The notes under the pieces: generated by a model
Told to the model about the DNA's origin: nothing
Database searches by the model: none
What the model saw: the letters and a program-made list of their open reading frames with translations, nothing else
Shown: positions 2,300 to 10,807 of the stretch, piece after piece
Layout of the letters: each line of letters starts with the position of its first letter
Numbering within the stretch: the stretch's first letter is position 1
From: Candidatus Desantisiibacteriota bacterium
GTDB lineage: Bacteria > JACRDZ01
Length of the DNA stretch: 10,807 nt
Reading direction: 5' to 3'
Assembly (NCBI GenBank): GCA_016209155.1
Contig: JACQWU010000100.1
Span: forward strand, 1 to 10,807
Translations under genes and position numbers: made by a program

Positions 2300-5200
2300 A
2301 TGGATAAAGTCCCCGCAGGTGAATTTAGATGGCTGGATGAAAAAACTTTGCAATTTAAACCTGCAGATGCATGGCCTCCGCTAACACAATTCAAATGGAC
2401 AATTGATAATACTACAAAGGAATTTATTACATTGCTTTCTATCCCGGAAGAAGTTCGGATAAAAGATAGTTCGAAAAATATTGATAAAATTATAGCTCAA
2501 ACTGATAAACCAAAAAACGCGTATTCAAGAAAAAGAAATTATTATGAAAATTATAATGAAGAAGAGAACGAATATAATAACGAGGAATTTCTTGAATATT
2601 CTAATGAAAGAACAAAAAACTATAATAATGGAGAAAACCTTTCCGAAGTTAGTGAAATAATCTTTATATTTAAAGACAGGATTGAAATAAATAAATTGAA
2701 AAATTTAATTTCAATTGAATTACGCAGTTTACCGGGAATAAATAAAGAAGAAAGTGTTTTATTAAATCAGGATGACTATACTCTTAAACCTGTTGAGAGA
2801 AACGTATTTAAAGACAAATTTACATATATATTAGCTTTTAAAATCCCGGTTAAAGAAGGTTTCAAAGTAATACTAAATTTATTTTTATCATCAGATGAGA
2901 AATTGAAAGATTCTAAAATTGAATATTTATTTGCTACAAAAGAACCATTTAGAGTAAAAGCTATTGGTATAGGAAATACTTCATATAACATAACATTATT
3001 TAAACCGGCTATTGAAAAAATTGAATTTACTCTGGCAGATAGAAAATTATTGATTAAGGGCAATATCAAAGAAGAAACTCTGTATAAAGCCGAAATATCA
3101 CCGGTTAAACTTTCTGATGGAAGACAATTGCAAAATAAAGCTTCATCCGAATTCTATTTTTATTTCCCTAAAAAGGAAGCGTTCTTAGTATGGAAAGAAT
3201 GTAATGTTATTATTGAACGTTATGGACCTCAGCAAATCCCAATGACAGGCAGGGCTGATACAAAAATTGATTTGCGAATATATAAAATTGATCCGTTAAA
3301 TTTAGCTCTATGGCCATTTCCTGACAGCCCAATTATAATTGATGAATCAACCAGACCTCCCATTCCGGGGGAAGAACCAATCTCAACGGAATCAATAAAA
3401 AATTTTATTTCTTCTAATGATTTTAATACTCATTTAAAAATGTTAGGAAGTCCGTTAATTTCAAATGTTATTGATTTACCAAAAATAAGTTCAATAAATA
3501 AAACGGATTTTGGATTAGATGTAAAAAAGTTTTTAGGAGATATTTCGGGTTCTGGAAAATCCGGTACTTATTTAATCGGATATAGAAGATTAAACGATGA
3601 AAATAAGAGATATTATGTTAGAGTGCAGGTTACTGATTTGTGCCTGACAACTTTTGAGGAAAAACGCGGAATAAAATTTGTTGTTACATCACTGAAAACA
3701 GGAAAACCAATTGAAGATGCAAAAATAATACTGCAAGGCAATACCGGTTATAGAACCTCAGAATTTAGTGACATAATAATTGGAGAAACTGATGAATCCG
3801 GCATGTTTTATTATTTACATAAAAATAATTTGCAAAGTAACTTTACTCGATTTATAGTAAAAAAAGATGATGATATTTTAGTGATTAATCCTGCAAATCC
3901 ACCTGTATCTTTTTTAAATAATCATTGGTTTAAAACACAAAATTCATGGCTTAGCTGGCTTAATTCATATCCAAAATATTTTGGGACAGAACCTGATAAT
4001 ACAGATTCTTTAGTAAAAGGTTTTGTTTTTTCCGAGCGTCCTATTTATAGACCCGAAGAAGAGGTTTATATCAAAGGTTATGTTCGAAAAATTTTAGAAG
4101 GAAAATATAGTATTGAACAAAATATATCCATTGAACTTGAAATTGTCGGCCCTGATGAAAATAAGACATGGAAGTATCCCCTTAAGCTTACTTCACAGGG
4201 GAGTTTTTATTATAAATTTCAAGAACAATCTTTGCCCAGCGGAAATTATACTGTAAATATATATCGAATTTTAAATCCCGGCAGATATTTTATAGCTAAA
4301 ACAGATTTTAAAAAAGAAGCATATCGAATACCAAAATTTAAGATTGAATTATATGGTCAGGACAAGGTTCCTCTTGATCGTGAATTTACAGTACTTTTAA
4401 CCGGTGACTATTATGCCGGCGGTAAGGTTATCGGTAGGCCTGTTACATGGCGTGTTACTAAATTTTCTTACGCACATACACCAAAAGAAAAAGAAGGGTA
4501 CATATTTTCAACAGATAATCGATACTCAAAATCTCAAGAGAAAACATCAAGCGGTGTGATTGAAAAAAAGGATATTACTGATGAATCAGGGTCTGCCAGA
4601 CTTATAATAAATCCTGCTTTAGAGACTGAAGGGAAACCAATACTATATATTGTTGAGGCAACTGTTACTGATATTGATGAACAGACTTTTACTATAACGC
4701 AAAAAGTTATTGCATTACCTGCTTTTAATATTGGGGTTAAATTGGAACGTTATTATAAAGATTTTAAAAATATAATACCGGAAATAATAGCTCTTGATGT
4801 TTTTGATAAACTTCAGGATGGAGTGGAATTAAATGTAAATTTGCTAAAAAGAGAATGGCATTCACGTTTGCAGGAAACAGATTTTTCTTCAGGTGAATTA
4901 TCATATATAAATGATATTGTAGATAATAAAATGTATGAAACAACAGTTATAACAGGGGAAGAATTGAATAAACTGCAATTACCTGTTAAAGAGGCAGGTG
5001 TATATGTTTTAGAAGTTGAAGCGCGTGATAAATTAAACAGATTACAGCTTGTTTCTGTTGATTTTTATGTTAGCGGTAATGAAAAAGTATCATGGGAAAA
5101 AACAAAAGAATCTATTTTTGAGGTTGTTGCAAATAAAGATAATTATGATTCAGATGAAAAAGCATCTATTGTACTAAAAAGTCCGTTTCAAAACGCAGAA

Positions 5201-7897
5201 GCAATAGCGATTGTTGAAGCGCCTGATAAAAACTATTATTTCTGGATGAATGTTAAAAATGGAAGTGCAGTTTTTGAATTTCCGATATTAAAAACATACA
5301 TACCTAAAATTCCGGTACATTTTTTATTATTACGGGGACGAAATACAGATGAAATTAAAAATAGTAACGATATAGGCAGACCTAAATCAATAGCTTCAAC
5401 TATTTATATTAAAGTTAATCCGGAGCAAAATAGAGCAATAATAGATTTATCTCATCCTAAAAAAGCTATACCGGGTGAAGAGATAAAAATATTAATATCA
5501 TTAACTAATTTAAAAAAAGAACCTATTCCGGGTGAAGTTACTTTATGGTTTGTTGATGAAGCTGTACTTGCATTGCGCAAGGAAAAAAGCATTGATCCAT
5601 TACCAAATTTTATTCCTGATGTAGAGTCATATTTAAGGATAATTGATACGCGAAATAAAGTTATAGGAAATGTCTTAACATCTGAATATCCCGGAGGAGA
5701 TACAGGTGGAGATGAGTCTGGTACATTTTTCAAAGGCAATGTCAGGAAAAATTTTAAAACAGTACCATATTATAATCCTAATATTTTAGTTGATGAATCC
5801 GGAAAGATTGAGGTTACTATTAAGCTCCCTGATAATTTAACTAATTTTGCAATAAGAGCTGTTATATGTTCAAAAGAAGATAAATTCGGATTTGCTAAAT
5901 CATTAATTTCTGTTCGCCTGCCGGTTATTATTCAACCTGCAATGCCGAGATTTGTCCGCATTGGAGATAAATTTACAGCAGGCGGAATCGGGAGAATTGT
6001 TGAAGGAGAGGGCGGTGCGGGATTATGCAGTATCGAAACAGAAGGATTAACAATTGAAAATAATAAAGTTAAAAAGATAGATTGGCTGCTAAATAAACCG
6101 AAACAAATATATTATAACTTTAATGTTAATACTCATATTTTTAATGATAAAGGATTATTAATTGATAATAAAGTAAAAATTAAAATGTCTGTAATAAGAA
6201 ATTCGGATAATAAAGGAGATGCTTTTGAAATAACACTGCCTTTAAAGGATGATAGGAAACAGATAATACAGCAAAAATTTGTTAATTTAGAAAAGAATAA
6301 AAAAATATCATTTTCTGAAATTAAAGAAAAATATCGTAAAAACAGCCTCCGGCGAACTGCGCTTATATCAAATCAAATACGAATTTTAAAAATGGCAAGC
6401 TCAATACAATATTTGATCAATTTCCCATATGGGTGTACTGAACAGAAAATAAGCCGGGTATATCCTGCGCTTGCTTTAAAAGGAATTTTTTCGAATTTTA
6501 AAATAGATGAATTAATTCCCAATATTGATATTATAGTAAAGGAAACATTAGAGTATTTAAAACAAACAATGACAAGAGATGGCTTATATAGTTACTGGCC
6601 AGGCGGGCGGGGATATGTAAATTTAACAGCTTATGTTCTGGAATTTCTTGTGGAAGCTAAAAAAGCCGGATACAGTGTTGATGATGATTTATACGCTCGC
6701 GCAATTGATTCATTAAAAAAAGCAATGCGTTCGGATTATAATCTTTTTATTGACGGATATGCTTATGAAGAGCGCAGTTATGCGTTATATGCTTTATCTA
6801 TGGCAGGACAATTCGATCCTGCGTATGCAAATGAAATGTATAAATCCGCAAAAGTATTACCACTTCATACTGAATCAAAAATATTACTGGCTTTTTTAAA
6901 TTCAAATTATAAAAATGAAAAAATATTGTCTGATATGTCGGACGATTTATGGAATAACCTTATATTTAAATTAAGGGATGGAAAAGAAGTCTATGGCGGA
7001 TTGCAGGATAGAGTTGATTCATGGGGCGGATTAATTAATTCAAATGAAATTACAACATTAGCAAATGTAATAAGCGCTTTATCTCATGCAAAAACCAAAG
7101 ATCCAAAATTTAATCTTTTAGTTGATGAACTTATTACAACCTGCGGAAAAGACGGATGGGGGAATACAAATGCTACATCTGCTTCTTTACTTGCTTTAAA
7201 AGATGTTACAGGTACTGATAAAACTACGATTGGTGAATACGCATTACAAATAAATTTTGGCGGTAAAAATAATAAACTTAAAGTAAACAATCAAAATCCA
7301 ACTGTTTTTTTAGTAAGCAATGATGAAGGTGATGCAAATATTACAATGAATGAGAGTTCTTTAAATAATCCTCTTTATGCAAGATTAGAAGTTTCATATA
7401 TACCTGATAAACAGGGAGACACAGTTAAGGCAGAAAATAAAGGTTTTGTTGTTACAAGAGAAATAATACATATTTTAAAAGACGGACAAGCCCCAAAACG
7501 CTATTTAATTGAAAAAGAAAATGAAAAATATAATTTTAATATCGGAGATGTAATTGAGGAGCATATACAGGTAATAAATCCTGAAGATAGATATTTTGTG
7601 GCAATAATTGCTCCAATGGCTTCAGGTTTTGAACCATTAAATCCGAATTTGGATATCTCACCTCCTGAATCAAAACCGCAAGGTGAAAATACTTTAAATT
7701 CAACATATAATATGTTTCAGGATGATTATGTTGGATATTTTTATGATTTTCTTCCAAAAGGTACTTATGATTTTTATTATAGATTAAAAGCCTATACTGA
7801 AGGTTCATTTATACATCCTGCGGCATATGCTGAAATGATGTATATGCAGTCTGTCTCGGGAAATTCAAATGGAACAAGAATTGTTATTGAGAAGTAG
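2300..7897 (+). CDS. Bacterial alpha-2-macroglobulin (YfhM-like), thioester type, main frame
   Basis: This is a large protease-trapping protein of the bacterial A2M family, acting in the periplasm or on the membrane. When a protease cuts the bait region, a reactive thioester is exposed and the protease is captured. The main frame from 2300 has 1865 residues; with the frame-shifted signal peptide it would be about 1,900, longer than E. coli YfhM (about 1,650). In order: an MG-type start (RWLDEKTLQF near residue 10); a Tyr/Asn/Glu-rich low-complexity stretch (about 75-115); an MG2 domain with the YRP signature at Tyr583; the A2M_N_2/bait area (about 1040-1150, with WFVDEAVLAL); the A2M core domain from about 1156 (PYYNPNIL, then LPDNLTNFAIRA); the thioester FPYGCTEQ with Cys1379 and Gln1382, inside an alpha-toroid domain rich in helices to about 1600; and a C-terminal MG10-like domain. 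pbpC lies downstream, the usual partner. The last 24 codons are duplicated before pbpC. The 2300 start is only the first Met in frame, not the likely biological start. Confidence 0.92.
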   Translation: MDKVPAGEFRWLDEKTLQFKPADAWPPLTQFKWTIDNTTKEFITLLSIPEEVRIKDSSKNIDKIIAQTDKPKNAYSRKRNYYENYNEEENEYNNEEFLEYSNERTKNYNNGENLSEVSEIIFIFKDRIEINKLKNLISIELRSLPGINKEESVLLNQDDYTLKPVERNVFKDKFTYILAFKIPVKEGFKVILNLFLSSDEKLKDSKIEYLFATKEPFRVKAIGIGNTSYNITLFKPAIEKIEFTLADRKLLIKGNIKEETLYKAEISPVKLSDGRQLQNKASSEFYFYFPKKEAFLVWKECNVIIERYGPQQIPMTGRADTKIDLRIYKIDPLNLALWPFPDSPIIIDESTRPPIPGEEPISTESIKNFISSNDFNTHLKMLGSPLISNVIDLPKISSINKTDFGLDVKKFLGDISGSGKSGTYLIGYRRLNDENKRYYVRVQVTDLCLTTFEEKRGIKFVVTSLKTGKPIEDAKIILQGNTGYRTSEFSDIIIGETDESGMFYYLHKNNLQSNFTRFIVKKDDDILVINPANPPVSFLNNHWFKTQNSWLSWLNSYPKYFGTEPDNTDSLVKGFVFSERPIYRPEEEVYIKGYVRKILEGKYSIEQNISIELEIVGPDENKTWKYPLKLTSQGSFYYKFQEQSLPSGNYTVNIYRILNPGRYFIAKTDFKKEAYRIPKFKIELYGQDKVPLDREFTVLLTGDYYAGGKVIGRPVTWRVTKFSYAHTPKEKEGYIFSTDNRYSKSQEKTSSGVIEKKDITDESGSARLIINPALETEGKPILYIVEATVTDIDEQTFTITQKVIALPAFNIGVKLERYYKDFKNIIPEIIALDVFDKLQDGVELNVNLLKREWHSRLQETDFSSGELSYINDIVDNKMYETTVITGEELNKLQLPVKEAGVYVLEVEARDKLNRLQLVSVDFYVSGNEKVSWEKTKESIFEVVANKDNYDSDEKASIVLKSPFQNAEAIAIVEAPDKNYYFWMNVKNGSAVFEFPILKTYIPKIPVHFLLLRGRNTDEIKNSNDIGRPKSIASTIYIKVNPEQNRAIIDLSHPKKAIPGEEIKILISLTNLKKEPIPGEVTLWFVDEAVLALRKEKSIDPLPNFIPDVESYLRIIDTRNKVIGNVLTSEYPGGDTGGDESGTFFKGNVRKNFKTVPYYNPNILVDESGKIEVTIKLPDNLTNFAIRAVICSKEDKFGFAKSLISVRLPVIIQPAMPRFVRIGDKFTAGGIGRIVEGEGGAGLCSIETEGLTIENNKVKKIDWLLNKPKQIYYNFNVNTHIFNDKGLLIDNKVKIKMSVIRNSDNKGDAFEITLPLKDDRKQIIQQKFVNLEKNKKISFSEIKEKYRKNSLRRTALISNQIRILKMASSIQYLINFPYGCTEQKISRVYPALALKGIFSNFKIDELIPNIDIIVKETLEYLKQTMTRDGLYSYWPGGRGYVNLTAYVLEFLVEAKKAGYSVDDDLYARAIDSLKKAMRSDYNLFIDGYAYEERSYALYALSMAGQFDPAYANEMYKSAKVLPLHTESKILLAFLNSNYKNEKILSDMSDDLWNNLIFKLRDGKEVYGGLQDRVDSWGGLINSNEITTLANVISALSHAKTKDPKFNLLVDELITTCGKDGWGNTNATSASLLALKDVTGTDKTTIGEYALQINFGGKNNKLKVNNQNPTVFLVSNDEGDANITMNESSLNNPLYARLEVSYIPDKQGDTVKAENKGFVVTREIIHILKDGQAPKRYLIEKENEKYNFNIGDVIEEHIQVINPEDRYFVAIIAPMASGFEPLNPNLDISPPESKPQGENTLNSTYNMFQDDYVGYFYDFLPKGTYDFYYRLKAYTEGSFIHPAAYAEMMYMQSVSGNSNGTRIVIEK

Positions 7898-7901
7898 AGA
7901 T
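7825..7901 (+). repeat. 77-bp direct repeat, copy 1 (3' end of the A2M gene)
   Basis: This copy covers the last 24 codons of the A2M gene with its TAG at 7895-7897, plus AGAT. It matches 8682-8758 at 76 of 77 positions, with a constant offset of 857 bases. The only difference, T7885 versus G8742, is a third codon position (GTT/GTG, both Val). The match ends abruptly on both sides. Copy 1 is followed at once by the higA end of the inserted unit. Confidence 0.95.
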
Positions 7902-7902
7902 T

Positions 7903-8253
7903 TTATCCAATTAACGACTCAGCAGGGATATTGAAATTTATATATAGGGATTTAATCATTTTTACAGTTAAATGCCTTTTTTTGTTTAAAATCTCTGATA
8001 CACGATTCCTGCCTCCTAAATACGGAGCTAAATCAGAATTTTTTAATCCCATTTGTTCCATCCTAAATTTAATTGCTTCTATTGGATCAGGCGGCACTAT
8101 TGGATAGTGTTGTTGTTCATAATGCTCCACTAAAATAGATAAAATCTCCAATTCATCCCCTTGTGGTGTATTTTTTTTAGTATCAAATATTTCTTCAATT
8201 TTTTTTAAAGCTTTTTCATAATCTTTGTTATTTTTTATTGGTTTAATTACCAT
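7903..8253 (-). CDS. higA: HigA-type antitoxin, XRE-family helix-turn-helix repressor
   Basis: This 116-residue protein neutralises the HigB toxin by binding it and represses the higBA promoter. Residues 1-60 are charged and helical (KALKKIEEIFDTKK, LEILSILVEHYEQQ) and are expected to contact toxin or form the dimer. The helix-turn-helix spans about 62-110, with AIKFRMEQMGLKNSDLAPYL followed by RNRVSEILNKKR, the usual pattern of HigA antitoxins (COG5499). The ATG at 8253 follows the higB stop by two bases, and a GGAGG site lies within the last codons of higB, seven bases before the start, so translation is probably coupled. The toxin-first order is typical of higBA. The gene converges on the A2M gene: the two stop codons are only five bases apart, with no terminator between them, and the higA stop codon begins two bases inside the inserted unit. 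Confidence 0.93.
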   Translation of the reverse strand: MVIKPIKNNKDYEKALKKIEEIFDTKKNTPQGDELEILSILVEHYEQQHYPIVPPDPIEAIKFRMEQMGLKNSDLAPYLGGRNRVSEILNKKRHLTVKMIKSLYINFNIPAESLIG

Positions 8254-8255
8254 AG

Positions 8256-8549
8256 TTATACCTCCGCTACTTTTATTCTATCATATTCTTTATGAGTACC
8301 AATAAATCTTATAAAAACAATTTTATAGGCATAGTTTATTGCTACAACTAATCTATATGTATTACCTCTTATATTAAAAACAGCTTTATTATTGGCTAAT
8401 ATACTTGCTGAACTGTACATTTGCTTGATGTCATTTGGATTGTTCCAATTTGATTTTTTAGTTTCTTCATACCAGGCACGTAATGCCTGCTCCGAATCAC
8501 TATGTTTTTCCCAAAACTCTCGTAACCTTTTGACTGATATTATTCTCAT
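8256..8549 (-). CDS. higB: HigB-type toxin, ribosome-dependent mRNA interferase
   Basis: This is a 97-residue toxin of the HigB/RelE fold (HigB_toxin family), expected to cut translated mRNA on the ribosome when HigA is degraded. It starts MRIISVKRLREFWEKH and shows the family landmarks in order: ALRAWYEETKKSNW, a DIKQMYSSAS segment, FNIRGNTYRLVVAINY and VFIRFIGTHKEYDRI. I chose the ATG at 8549 because family members start with a M-x-I-I/V-S pattern at this point. An upstream TTG at 8588 would add 13 residues, but it is the first part of the TTGACA -35 box and has no ribosome binding site. The TAA at 8256-8258 sits two bases before higA. The gene appears intact. No strong Shine-Dalgarno site precedes the ATG, and the predicted mRNA leader is only a few bases. 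Confidence 0.93.
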   Translation of the reverse strand: MRIISVKRLREFWEKHSDSEQALRAWYEETKKSNWNNPNDIKQMYSSASILANNKAVFNIRGNTYRLVVAINYAYKIVFIRFIGTHKEYDRIKVAEV

Positions 8550-8559
8550 ATATATTGAA

Positions 8560-8588
8560 AATATATTCCCAAATTGGGATTTTGTCAA
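8560..8588 (-). promoter_or_regulatory. Sigma70-like promoter of higBA
   Basis: On the minus strand TTGACA (8588-8583) is followed after exactly 17 bases by TATATT (8565-8560), a consensus -35 and a 5/6 match to the -10. Transcription would begin about seven bases further, only about four bases before the higB ATG at 8549, giving an almost leaderless toxin mRNA. A 13-base palindrome lies inside the spacer. A second TATAAT further upstream on this strand lacks a good -35. Confidence 0.65.
8567..8579. promoter_or_regulatory. Palindrome TCCCAAATTGGGA in the higBA promoter spacer, candidate HigA operator
   Basis: Six-base perfect arms (TCCCAA / TTGGGA) surround one central base. The site lies between the -35 and -10 of the higBA promoter, where a bound repressor would block RNA polymerase. 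HigA antitoxins are known to autoregulate through palindromes in their own promoter; that this one is bound is inference. Confidence 0.5.
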
Positions 8589-8626
8589 GAATATTTTAGG
8601 AATGGCATGGAAAAATTTCTTGACAA
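8582..8626. promoter_or_regulatory. Perfect 10-bp inverted repeat TTGTCAAGAA / TTCTTGACAA holding two opposed -35 boxes
   Basis: Arms at 8582-8591 and 8617-8626 are perfect reverse complements, 25 bases apart. Each arm contains TTGACA reading outward: the left arm on the minus strand is the -35 of higBA, and the right arm on the plus strand is the -35 of a possible promoter facing pbpC. The repeat may simply reflect two promoters back to back, or may be a repressor site with two half-sites. Confidence 0.6.
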
Positions 8627-8648
8627 CTCTATTTTTATATAGTTAAAT
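8620..8648 (+). promoter_or_regulatory. Possible plus-strand promoter carried by the insert and facing pbpC
   Basis: TTGACA at 8620-8625 is followed after 17 bases by TTAAAT at 8643-8648, a consensus -35 with a 4/6 -10. It would start transcription near 8655, about 100 bases before pbpC. Because the minus-strand higBA unit now separates pbpC from the A2M gene, such a promoter could supply pbpC on its own. The -10 is weak, so this is tentative. Confidence 0.4.
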
Positions 8649-8675
8649 TATAACATCCAATTTTTATTTAACTAT
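8639..8675. repeat. Perfect 10-bp inverted repeat ATAGTTAAAT / ATTTAACTAT at the right end of the insert
   Basis: Arms at 8639-8648 and 8666-8675 are perfect reverse complements with a 17-base loop, a few bases before the second copy of the 77-bp repeat. The left arm includes the possible -10 box of the plus-strand promoter. It may be an operator, an element end or a weak hairpin. All-A/T-rich sequence makes some inverted repeats expected by chance. Confidence 0.45.
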
Positions 8676-8681
8676 CCATCT

Positions 8682-8758
8682 ATATGCTGAAATGATGTAT
8701 ATGCAGTCTGTCTCGGGAAATTCAAATGGAACAAGAATTGTGATTGAGAAGTAGAGAT
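8682..8758 (+). repeat. 77-bp direct repeat, copy 2 (orphan A2M gene end before pbpC)
   Basis: This second copy of the A2M 3' end has no A2M gene in front of it. Its in-frame ATG at 8692 could still be read for 20 codons (MMYMQSVSGN and on) to TAG at 8752-8754, two bases before the pbpC ATG. The last bases of the repeat are the A and T of that ATG. The copy thus preserves the original junction between A2M stop and pbpC start, including the weak GAGAAG ribosome binding site. Confidence 0.93.
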
Positions 8759-10807
8759 GAAAAAAAAGATACTATTCATTTTTTTGCTATTAATAATTTT
8801 ATTTATAACCTATTACAAAAATCATAAAGATATTATTTTAAAGCCGTATAATTCATCCATTTTGCTTTTAGATTGCAACGGGAAATATCTTGCTGATATT
8901 GAGACAGAGAGTGGATTATTCGGGTATTGGCCATTGCCGGATATTATCCCTGATAAAATTATTAAATCAACCCTTGCTGCTGAGGATCATAGATTTTATT
9001 CTCATAATGGAGTTGATGTTCATTCAATTCTGCGTGCATTCTGGTCAAATCTAAAAAACAGAAAAATAGTTTCCGGAGCATCTACGCTCGCAATGCAAAC
9101 CGCAAGACTTCAAAATCCTGGTAAAAGAACTTTTTTAAAAAAAATAAATGAAGCATTCCAGGCATTAATCCTTACTAAAAAATATGGGCGTATAAATATT
9201 TTAAGGCAATATCTGAAAATAGCGCCATATGGAAATAGAGCATATGGAATAAATTATGCCGCAAGAAAATATTTTAAAAAACCAATTCAGGATTTAAGCT
9301 GGGGAGAAGCAGTTTTGCTTGCCTCTCTGCCTCAATCTCCGGGTAAAATGAACTTTACAAAGGAGATCGGCAAAAATTTAATTATAAAACGCGCAAAATT
9401 TATTTTAGATAGATTAATTAAATTAAACTGGATTTCTAAAGAAGATTATGAATACACTCAAAAAGAATTGCAGGAATTTAAAACTGCAAATATTCATAAA
9501 GATAAAATCCCGGATACACTAATCCATGCAGTACTTGATATTAAAACAAAAATAAAAAATAATGAATCAATTAAAAATAAGTATTCACTTAAAACAACAA
9601 TAGATATTGATTTGCAAGAAAGAGTTTTTGATATTGCAAATGAAGCAATAATACAGTACAGAGATTATGGCGCTGATAACATAGCTGTTTTAATAGTCGA
9701 TAAACACACAGGCGGAATAGTAAGTTATATTGGTTCTGATGATTATTTTTACGATAAATTTTATGGTAAAATAAATTTTGTTCAAACATTACGTTCATCA
9801 GGCAGTACATTAAAACCATTTATTTATGCATTCGGGATGTCTGAAAACGGCTACACTGCGGCGCACATTCTTAAAGATGTTGGATTTTTGCTTAATTTTA
9901 AGGATGGAAAGTATTTTGTCAGAAATTACGATGAAAAATTTTTAGGCCCGATTCTTTATCGCGATGCTCTTGCAAATAGCAGAAATCTACCGGCTATTGA
10001 AGTATTACAAAATGTCGGGATTGATGTTACTTATGATAAATTTAAAAAACTCGGGCTTGCAGATATAAAACATAATGCGGAATATTATGGACTCGGGATG
10101 TCTATAGGCGGAATATATGTAACATTATATAATCTTGTGCAGGCTTATGGAGTTTTAGCGTGCGACGGGAAAGAATTTCAATTAAAATTTTTTACTGATG
10201 AAAATTCAAATATTAATAAAAAACAATTAATACCCGAAGATATTGCACGGCAAATAACACTTTTTTTAGCTGATCCAATGGCAAGGCTTCCAGGTTTCAG
10301 TAGAATGAGCGCATTAGAATATCCCTTTCCCGTAGCTGTTAAAACCGGAACATCTCAGGGATTTAAAGATGCCTGGGCGATAGCATATTCAAAAGATTAT
10401 ATCGTTGGAGTATGGATTGGAAATGCTAATTGTCTTCCTATGAAAAGATTAACAGGGTCAATTTCATCGGCAAAGGTAATTAAGCAAATAATGTTTTCTT
10501 TGCATCCGGAGGATTTAGACGGTTTAAGAGAAATTGAATTCCCTGCGCCAAAAGGATATAAAGAATACAGAATTTGTAAATTAACAGGTAAATTAGCAAC
10601 AACTGAAACACCATATACTGCCACAGAAAGATTTAAGCCGGGTACAGAACCAAAAGAATATAGTGATATATATAAAAGAATATCTATTGATATACGCACG
10701 GGTTTAGAGTCACAAGGAGATTGTCCTGAAAAATTTAAAATTACAAAAATATTTGTGAATTTACCAAATGAATTTGCTATTTGGGCAAAAGAATCAGGAT
10801 TTGAATT
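8757..10807 (+). CDS. pbpC: Penicillin-binding protein 1C, bifunctional class A, 3' end outside the window
   Basis: This inner-membrane enzyme polymerises and cross-links peptidoglycan in the periplasm. The window holds 683 codons with no stop. A short basic start (MKKK) and one hydrophobic segment (about residues 5-19, ILFIFLLLIILFITY) form the membrane anchor. The GT51 transglycosylase domain shows AAEDHRFYSHNG with catalytic Glu76 and then GASTLAMQTARL, the PbpC variant of the second motif. The transpeptidase domain has all three motifs: Ser350-T-L-Lys353, Ser408-R-Asn410 and Lys529-T-G followed by TS. The sequence beyond about residue 600 is the start of the PbpC-specific C-terminal domain. 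All key residues are present, so the enzyme should be active. Start choice: the ATG at 8757 lies two bases after the TAG of the duplicated A2M end, with GAGAAG just upstream. It was probably once cotranscribed with the A2M gene. Confidence 0.95.
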   Translation, partial: MKKKILFIFLLLIILFITYYKNHKDIILKPYNSSILLLDCNGKYLADIETESGLFGYWPLPDIIPDKIIKSTLAAEDHRFYSHNGVDVHSILRAFWSNLKNRKIVSGASTLAMQTARLQNPGKRTFLKKINEAFQALILTKKYGRINILRQYLKIAPYGNRAYGINYAARKYFKKPIQDLSWGEAVLLASLPQSPGKMNFTKEIGKNLIIKRAKFILDRLIKLNWISKEDYEYTQKELQEFKTANIHKDKIPDTLIHAVLDIKTKIKNNESIKNKYSLKTTIDIDLQERVFDIANEAIIQYRDYGADNIAVLIVDKHTGGIVSYIGSDDYFYDKFYGKINFVQTLRSSGSTLKPFIYAFGMSENGYTAAHILKDVGFLLNFKDGKYFVRNYDEKFLGPILYRDALANSRNLPAIEVLQNVGIDVTYDKFKKLGLADIKHNAEYYGLGMSIGGIYVTLYNLVQAYGVLACDGKEFQLKFFTDENSNINKKQLIPEDIARQITLFLADPMARLPGFSRMSALEYPFPVAVKTGTSQGFKDAWAIAYSKDYIVGVWIGNANCLPMKRLTGSISSAKVIKQIMFSLHPEDLDGLREIEFPAPKGYKEYRICKLTGKLATTETPYTATERFKPGTEPKEYSDIYKRISIDIRTGLESQGDCPEKFKITKIFVNLPNEFAIWAKESGFE

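Follow-up and report, generated by a model that had tools for sequence, protein, structure and literature searches.

A bare higBA toxin-antitoxin unit lies between the genes for a bacterial alpha-2-macroglobulin (A2M) and penicillin-binding protein 1C (pbpC) in a draft genome of Candidatus Desantisiibacteriota bacterium, enclosed by two copies of a 77-bp sequence that takes in the end of the A2M gene. Insertion of the unit is well supported, and we regard illegitimate insertion with a long target duplication, the insert then being retained through addiction, as the best explanation of the locus, with a probability of roughly 0.6. The window analysed here is one whole contig (C17, 10,807 nt) of an assembly in 352 contigs that is 78.8% complete.

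The 77-bp repeat and the genes it encloses

A repeat search of the window returned a direct repeat (D1) of 77 nt, the copies of which are identical at 76 of 77 positions (98.7%) and lie 857 nt apart (Table 1), in agreement with the first-pass annotation, which had placed the same repeat around higBA. Exact repeats in the window reach 60 nt, whereas in 20 first-order random sequences matched for composition the longest was 14 to 17 nt, which excludes a chance origin. The single mismatch is a synonymous one for A2M, GTT and GTG both encoding Val. The right copy stops within the pbpC start codon (8757-8759) and supplies the pbpC ribosome site (GAGAAG at 8746-8751, 5 nt upstream of the ATG), together with a leader ORF that encodes 20 amino acids of the A2M end (8692-8754, MMYMQSVSGNSNGTRIVIEK). 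The gap between the A2M stop codon and the pbpC start in this copy is 2 nt (TAG-AG-ATG) rather than the four bases proposed earlier. The further claim that neither neighbour is damaged holds: the A2M C-terminus is intact and aligns by eye with the A2M ends of relatives, and the pbpC frame is open to the contig end, past which the gene extends. No structured RNA or tRNA is found in the 10,807-nt window.

Table 1. Features of the A2M-higBA-pbpC locus (positions in the window)
Feature	Position	Strand	Remarks
A2M (bacterial alpha-2-macroglobulin)	2300..7897	+	Pfam bMG10, A2M, MG2, A2M_BRD; 3' end intact
Left 77-bp copy	7825..7901	+	Final A2M codons, stop codon and AGAT
Insert between copies	7902..8681	.	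780 bp, 28% G+C (A2M 31%, pbpC 32%)
higA antitoxin	7903..8253	-	116 aa, full length; HTH_3 match just below cut-off
higB toxin	8256..8549	-	97 aa from ATG 8549; HigB_toxin PF09907, E 1e-33
higBA promoter (predicted)	8560..8588	-	TTGACA-17-TATATT, 11/12 matches
13-bp palindrome TCCCAAATTGGGA	8567..8579	.	Between the hexamers of the predicted higBA promoter; listed by the scan as a terminator-like stem
Outward promoter (predicted)	8620..8648	+	TTGACA-17-TTAAAT, hexamers 8620-8625 and 8643-8648; faces pbpC
Right 77-bp copy	8682..8758	+	Leader ORF, ribosome site, first two bases of pbpC start codon
pbpC (penicillin-binding protein 1C)	8757..10805	+	TIGR02073, E 6.5e-136 (under the curated cut-off); Transgly and Transpeptidase domains

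Apart from higA and higB, the 780-bp insert contains nothing but two predicted, divergently oriented promoters; its description as higB, higA and their promoter was thus right for the genes and incomplete for the second, outward-facing promoter. The toxin scores 115.6 bits against PF09907 (cut-off 27) and matches HigB of PDB 5ycl, 5ifg and 6kml, and the antitoxin matches HigA of PDB 5ifg/5ycl and shows 55.9% identity to plasmid HTH proteins over residues 1-116 (116/116 residues aligned). Translation of higB probably starts at ATG 8549, the listed ORF beginning earlier, at 8588. The palindrome TCCCAAATTGGGA is probably a HigA operator. We infer the promoter and operator roles within the insert from motif matches, and a consensus scan overall gave promoter sites no more numerous than in shuffles. 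As in known type II HigBA systems, a toxin of the HigB_toxin family comes first and an HTH antitoxin second, behind a putative promoter of their own with a palindrome; here, however, the unit is chromosomal and bare, with no surrounding plasmid, phage or integron, and it lies antisense within the A2M-pbpC pair. The same genome yielded no second higB copy that could have served as an internal donor. The locus also falls outside PD-Lambda-2 (PADLOC), of which component A matches in full and component B only at positions 3-119 of its 402-position profile.

The predicted outward promoter is part of a dispersed, promoter-like element of about 69 bp (8614-8682) that occurs at about 20 places in the 1.14 Mb of the genome examined. 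Its core reads TTCTTGACA-N17-TTAAATT, conservation extends well past the promoter hexamers, and further copies include L097 1866-1933, L091 1623-1689, L094, L093, L095 and L190; the element is possibly a mobile or recurrent promoter. Twelve additional genome matches of the insert, considered as a mobile end, were rejected since they are this element. A second dispersed sequence, REP-like (GTAGGGGTTCGATTCATCGAACCC...AATCAAGCCCCTACAAT), is found in L157 (1-150), L105 (6960-7021) and about 25 other places. Upstream of the locus, a 29-nt inverted repeat (AACCACAGAGGGCACAGAG, 2042-2070 / 2127-2155) separates the upstream ORF from the A2M gene, and a CCACAG/CTCTGTG pair resembling it occurs also in L020; the A2M ORF as called begins at ATG 2300 and has no obvious signal peptide.

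Probable ancestral gene order and route of insertion

Nine distant genomes, including one same-phylum member, have pbpC immediately downstream of an A2M gene, and in at least three of them the two genes touch or overlap (TAA/ATG in L024, an ATGA overlap in L022 and a TAATG overlap in L029). The pair has therefore most likely been separated in this genome, by insertion. A search for relatives returned only same-phylum genomes, two scans of genome contigs gave nothing close that could supply an empty site, and scans of viral contigs gave no matches.

As the first-pass annotation had stated, no transposase or integrase is present in the 780-bp insert; it encodes no other recombinase either, and no terminal inverted repeats pair its two ends, so that a transposon or insertion sequence is rejected. 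The same annotation had offered, as one of two possibilities, an att-like integrative element, in which the A2M 3' end would be an attachment site and the recombinase would act in trans or have been lost. Preservation of the host gene's 3' end by the left copy is what att sites in genes would give, but the insert lacks a recombinase and shows no pairing of its ends as an inverted repeat, no ends are shared among the inserts of this genome (the sole strong match of the C17 insert, on C323, is to the dispersed promoter element), and the duplicated sequence is different at each of them. This possibility gains no positive support from the genome and appears highly improbable. An integron gene cassette at a secondary site can be named as a source because the same genome has an attC-like array, with a hicBA-like pair, on contig C121. 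It is contradicted by the lack of an attC core-site pair in or adjoining the insert: only 1 nt separates the left copy from the higA stop codon (7905-7903), which leaves no room for attC, and the 77-bp repeat folds no better than shuffles (z-scores 0.70 and 0.49), making a cassette origin scarcely credible.

The other possibility raised at the outset, arrival by a process that copies a long target, is supported by the adjacency of the two genes in relatives, by the lack of recombinase, inverted termini and attC, and by recurrence of the layout elsewhere in the genome. Under our preferred explanation, a bare higBA pair with its control region and an opposite-facing promoter would have been joined in at staggered ends between A2M and pbpC through illegitimate recombination, with no site specificity, the 77 bp made up of the last part of the A2M gene and the opening two bases of pbpC being copied to both sides. 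The left copy would preserve the A2M C-terminus and the right copy the pbpC ribosome site; pbpC would lose easy read-through from A2M, for which a promoter donated by the insert, the predicted outward one, would compensate. The direct repeats would permit excision by homologous recombination. Loss of higBA, however, would leave stable HigB with decaying HigA and lead to growth arrest, and the insert would be retained because excision between the repeats would remove the antidote. A plasmid-borne HigBA stabilises its plasmid via post-segregational killing (PMC11429247), and some chromosomal toxin-antitoxin systems do not stabilise their surroundings (PMC2654758).

Homologous transfer, the donor route already named in the first-pass annotation, would produce the same final layout with the neighbours intact, if a donor relative already had the A2M 3' end beside higBA and this segment, as a circle or fragment, recombined by a Campbell-type event or flank exchange with the A2M end of the recipient. 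Duplications of gene ends are seen also at C199 and C235. Against this route, the collections searched contain no such donor, an earlier illegitimate join would still be needed within the donor, and the repeats at C323 and C20 derive from a 5' end or from intergenic DNA; we think it unlikely.

An artefact of metagenome assembly, with a strain mixture or graph error creating the second copy, deserves mention in a draft of this fragmentation and completeness, and 77 is a common assembler k-mer length, with which the length of the repeat coincides. The one-base difference between the copies, however, means that they have no exact 77-mer in common, the junctions (AGAT/TTTATCC and ATCT/ATATG) are unique, unlike an overlap artefact, a repeat copy provides the pbpC ribosome site within a coherent gene order, and the other repeats of this genome vary from 56 to 272 bp and from 85 to 99% identity. 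We therefore hold an artefact to be very unlikely.

Long direct repeats at other toxin-antitoxin loci

We scanned 1.14 Mb of the 3.08-Mb assembly for non-dispersed direct repeats and added loci from family searches. Other toxin-antitoxin units between long direct repeats, which the first-pass annotation had suggested seeking, are present at six or more places besides C17. At C323, vapBC lies between 56-bp copies (93% identity) of the 5' end of a DEAD-helicase gene; at C20, vapBC lies between 67-bp copies (85%); and at C199, a 2.1-kb segment that includes vapBC lies between 272-bp copies (89%) of the 3' end of an ankyrin gene. At C42, a PIN-like ORF (so named by eye) and a small ORF, neither with a Pfam match, are found between copies of cas6, the repeat being 151 bp at 99.3%. 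At C1, a 167-bp repeat (97.6%) encloses BrxA, an antitoxin-like ORF, a parE interrupted by a single in-frame stop codon, and an RlaP-like gene. At C235, vapBC has an intact EamA-like gene on one side and, on the other, a copy of that gene with an internal deletion. The pairs at C17, C42 and C1 are all those seen at 97% identity or more that are non-tandem, off contig ends and not intragenic, and all three enclose toxin-antitoxin-like genes. Within C1, the parE-family gene with its in-frame TGA (L035 4968-5195), near the BREX brxA-like gene, represents either a decaying toxin-antitoxin unit or a defence remnant.

C42 and C235 are near-whole gene duplications with later deletions, and their origin may differ. 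They offer a parallel for a different history of the C17 locus, in which an older, repeat-free insertion was followed by tandem duplication of the A2M end with higBA and then by loss of the second higBA. This history takes more steps and a precise loss that spared the ribosome site and start of pbpC, and we consider it very improbable.

We further compared the frequency of such bracketing with the background, counting repeats of at least 50 bp and at least 85% identity, spaced by no more than 3.2 kb and not of low complexity (for the background, also non-dispersed). Bracketed PIN/ParE loci number 4/28, against 0.91% of background bases (binomial p 1.2e-4, a value that is indicative only, the rule being post hoc and some of the 1.14 Mb of contigs having been chosen for their toxin-antitoxin hits), and ABC-transporter control loci 0/30. 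In a same-phylum genome (G001), bracketing is seen at only one of 22 PIN loci, where the repeat measures 535 bp at 83% identity.

Three other loci were set aside. The hicBA-like pair on C121 was not counted, being a cassette between attC-like sites: four attC-like repeats (CTAAC...GTTAG; 4866-4937, 8578-8658, 9362-9428 and 11800-11874; L255, L261-L264), one of which was folded and did better than most shuffles, are interspersed with or flanked by NTase/HEPN-like pairs, a DUF5678-like ORF and the hicBA-like pair, and the whole is probably an integron cassette array. C203 and C192 were not counted because the toxin gene lies outside the copies. On C203 (L102), a repeat of 229-230 bp (2267-2495 / 3128-3357) surrounds a DUF5678 gene and a small ORF beside vapBC-like genes; it codes for a C-terminus resembling that of an antitoxin and for a toxin-like start (MEKEMKILFDTS), and the toxin-like start of one copy is fused to a cas6 reading frame. 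On C192 (L159), a 119-bp internal piece of the ribonucleotide reductase gene nrdJ is duplicated (1052-1170 / 1774-1892) directly after vapC, and the opening bases of this duplicate provide the vapC stop codon.

Precedent and meaning for toxin-antitoxin units

Long target duplications around addictive genes have a precedent, in that Nobusato et al. in 2000 reportedly found restriction-modification genes of Helicobacter pylori inserted with a long target duplication (cited in PMC1643837 and PMC3874152). Those insertions resemble the present one in their long and variable target duplication (~100 bp), in an inserted pair that is, or here would be, addictive and in having no known mobile element. 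The cargo here is higBA, which makes this locus a variant rather than a strict member of that class, and a single genome here shows the layout at several of its toxin-antitoxin loci. The original case was built on pairs of strains of which one has the insert and the other lacks it, whereas the evidence here is adjacency in distant genomes. Since restriction-modification genes are already described as inserting with target duplications on the scale of 100 bp (PMC3874152, PMC1643837), the first-pass view that this would be an unusual way for a toxin-antitoxin module to move has to be tempered. In the partial literature covered, we found no paper describing insertion with a long target duplication for toxin-antitoxin units.

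A further comparison is with minimal mobile elements, in which variable cassettes located between conserved genes move through homologous recombination in the flanks. The C17 insert likewise is small, lies between two conserved genes and has no recombinase of its own, but minimal mobile elements do not require a direct repeat, and no alternative cassette is known at this site.

Other toxin-antitoxin pairs lie between long duplications in this genome, which suggests that addictive genes often survive insertion of this kind. The sieve proposed for higBA would account equally for the long target duplications around the other units, and the retention step alone would yield enrichment, without insertion machinery specific to toxin-antitoxin genes. 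A larger proposal would make the toxin-antitoxin units of this lineage a mobility class of their own, spreading bare with a long target duplication and locked in place by lethal excision. It seems doubtful to us; under it, a recombinase acting in trans may perhaps assist the spread.

The C17 locus by itself is a modest find, of an event type known for restriction-modification systems, and its recurrence raises its weight. For the question of how bare toxin-antitoxin units move between and within genomes without a mobile element, insertion scars at several units in one genome offer a direct handle, since they allow insertions to be counted. Divergence between the repeats (about 1-15% here) would give a rough order of these insertions, and the scars allow one to ask whether addiction protects inserts that could otherwise be deleted via their repeats.
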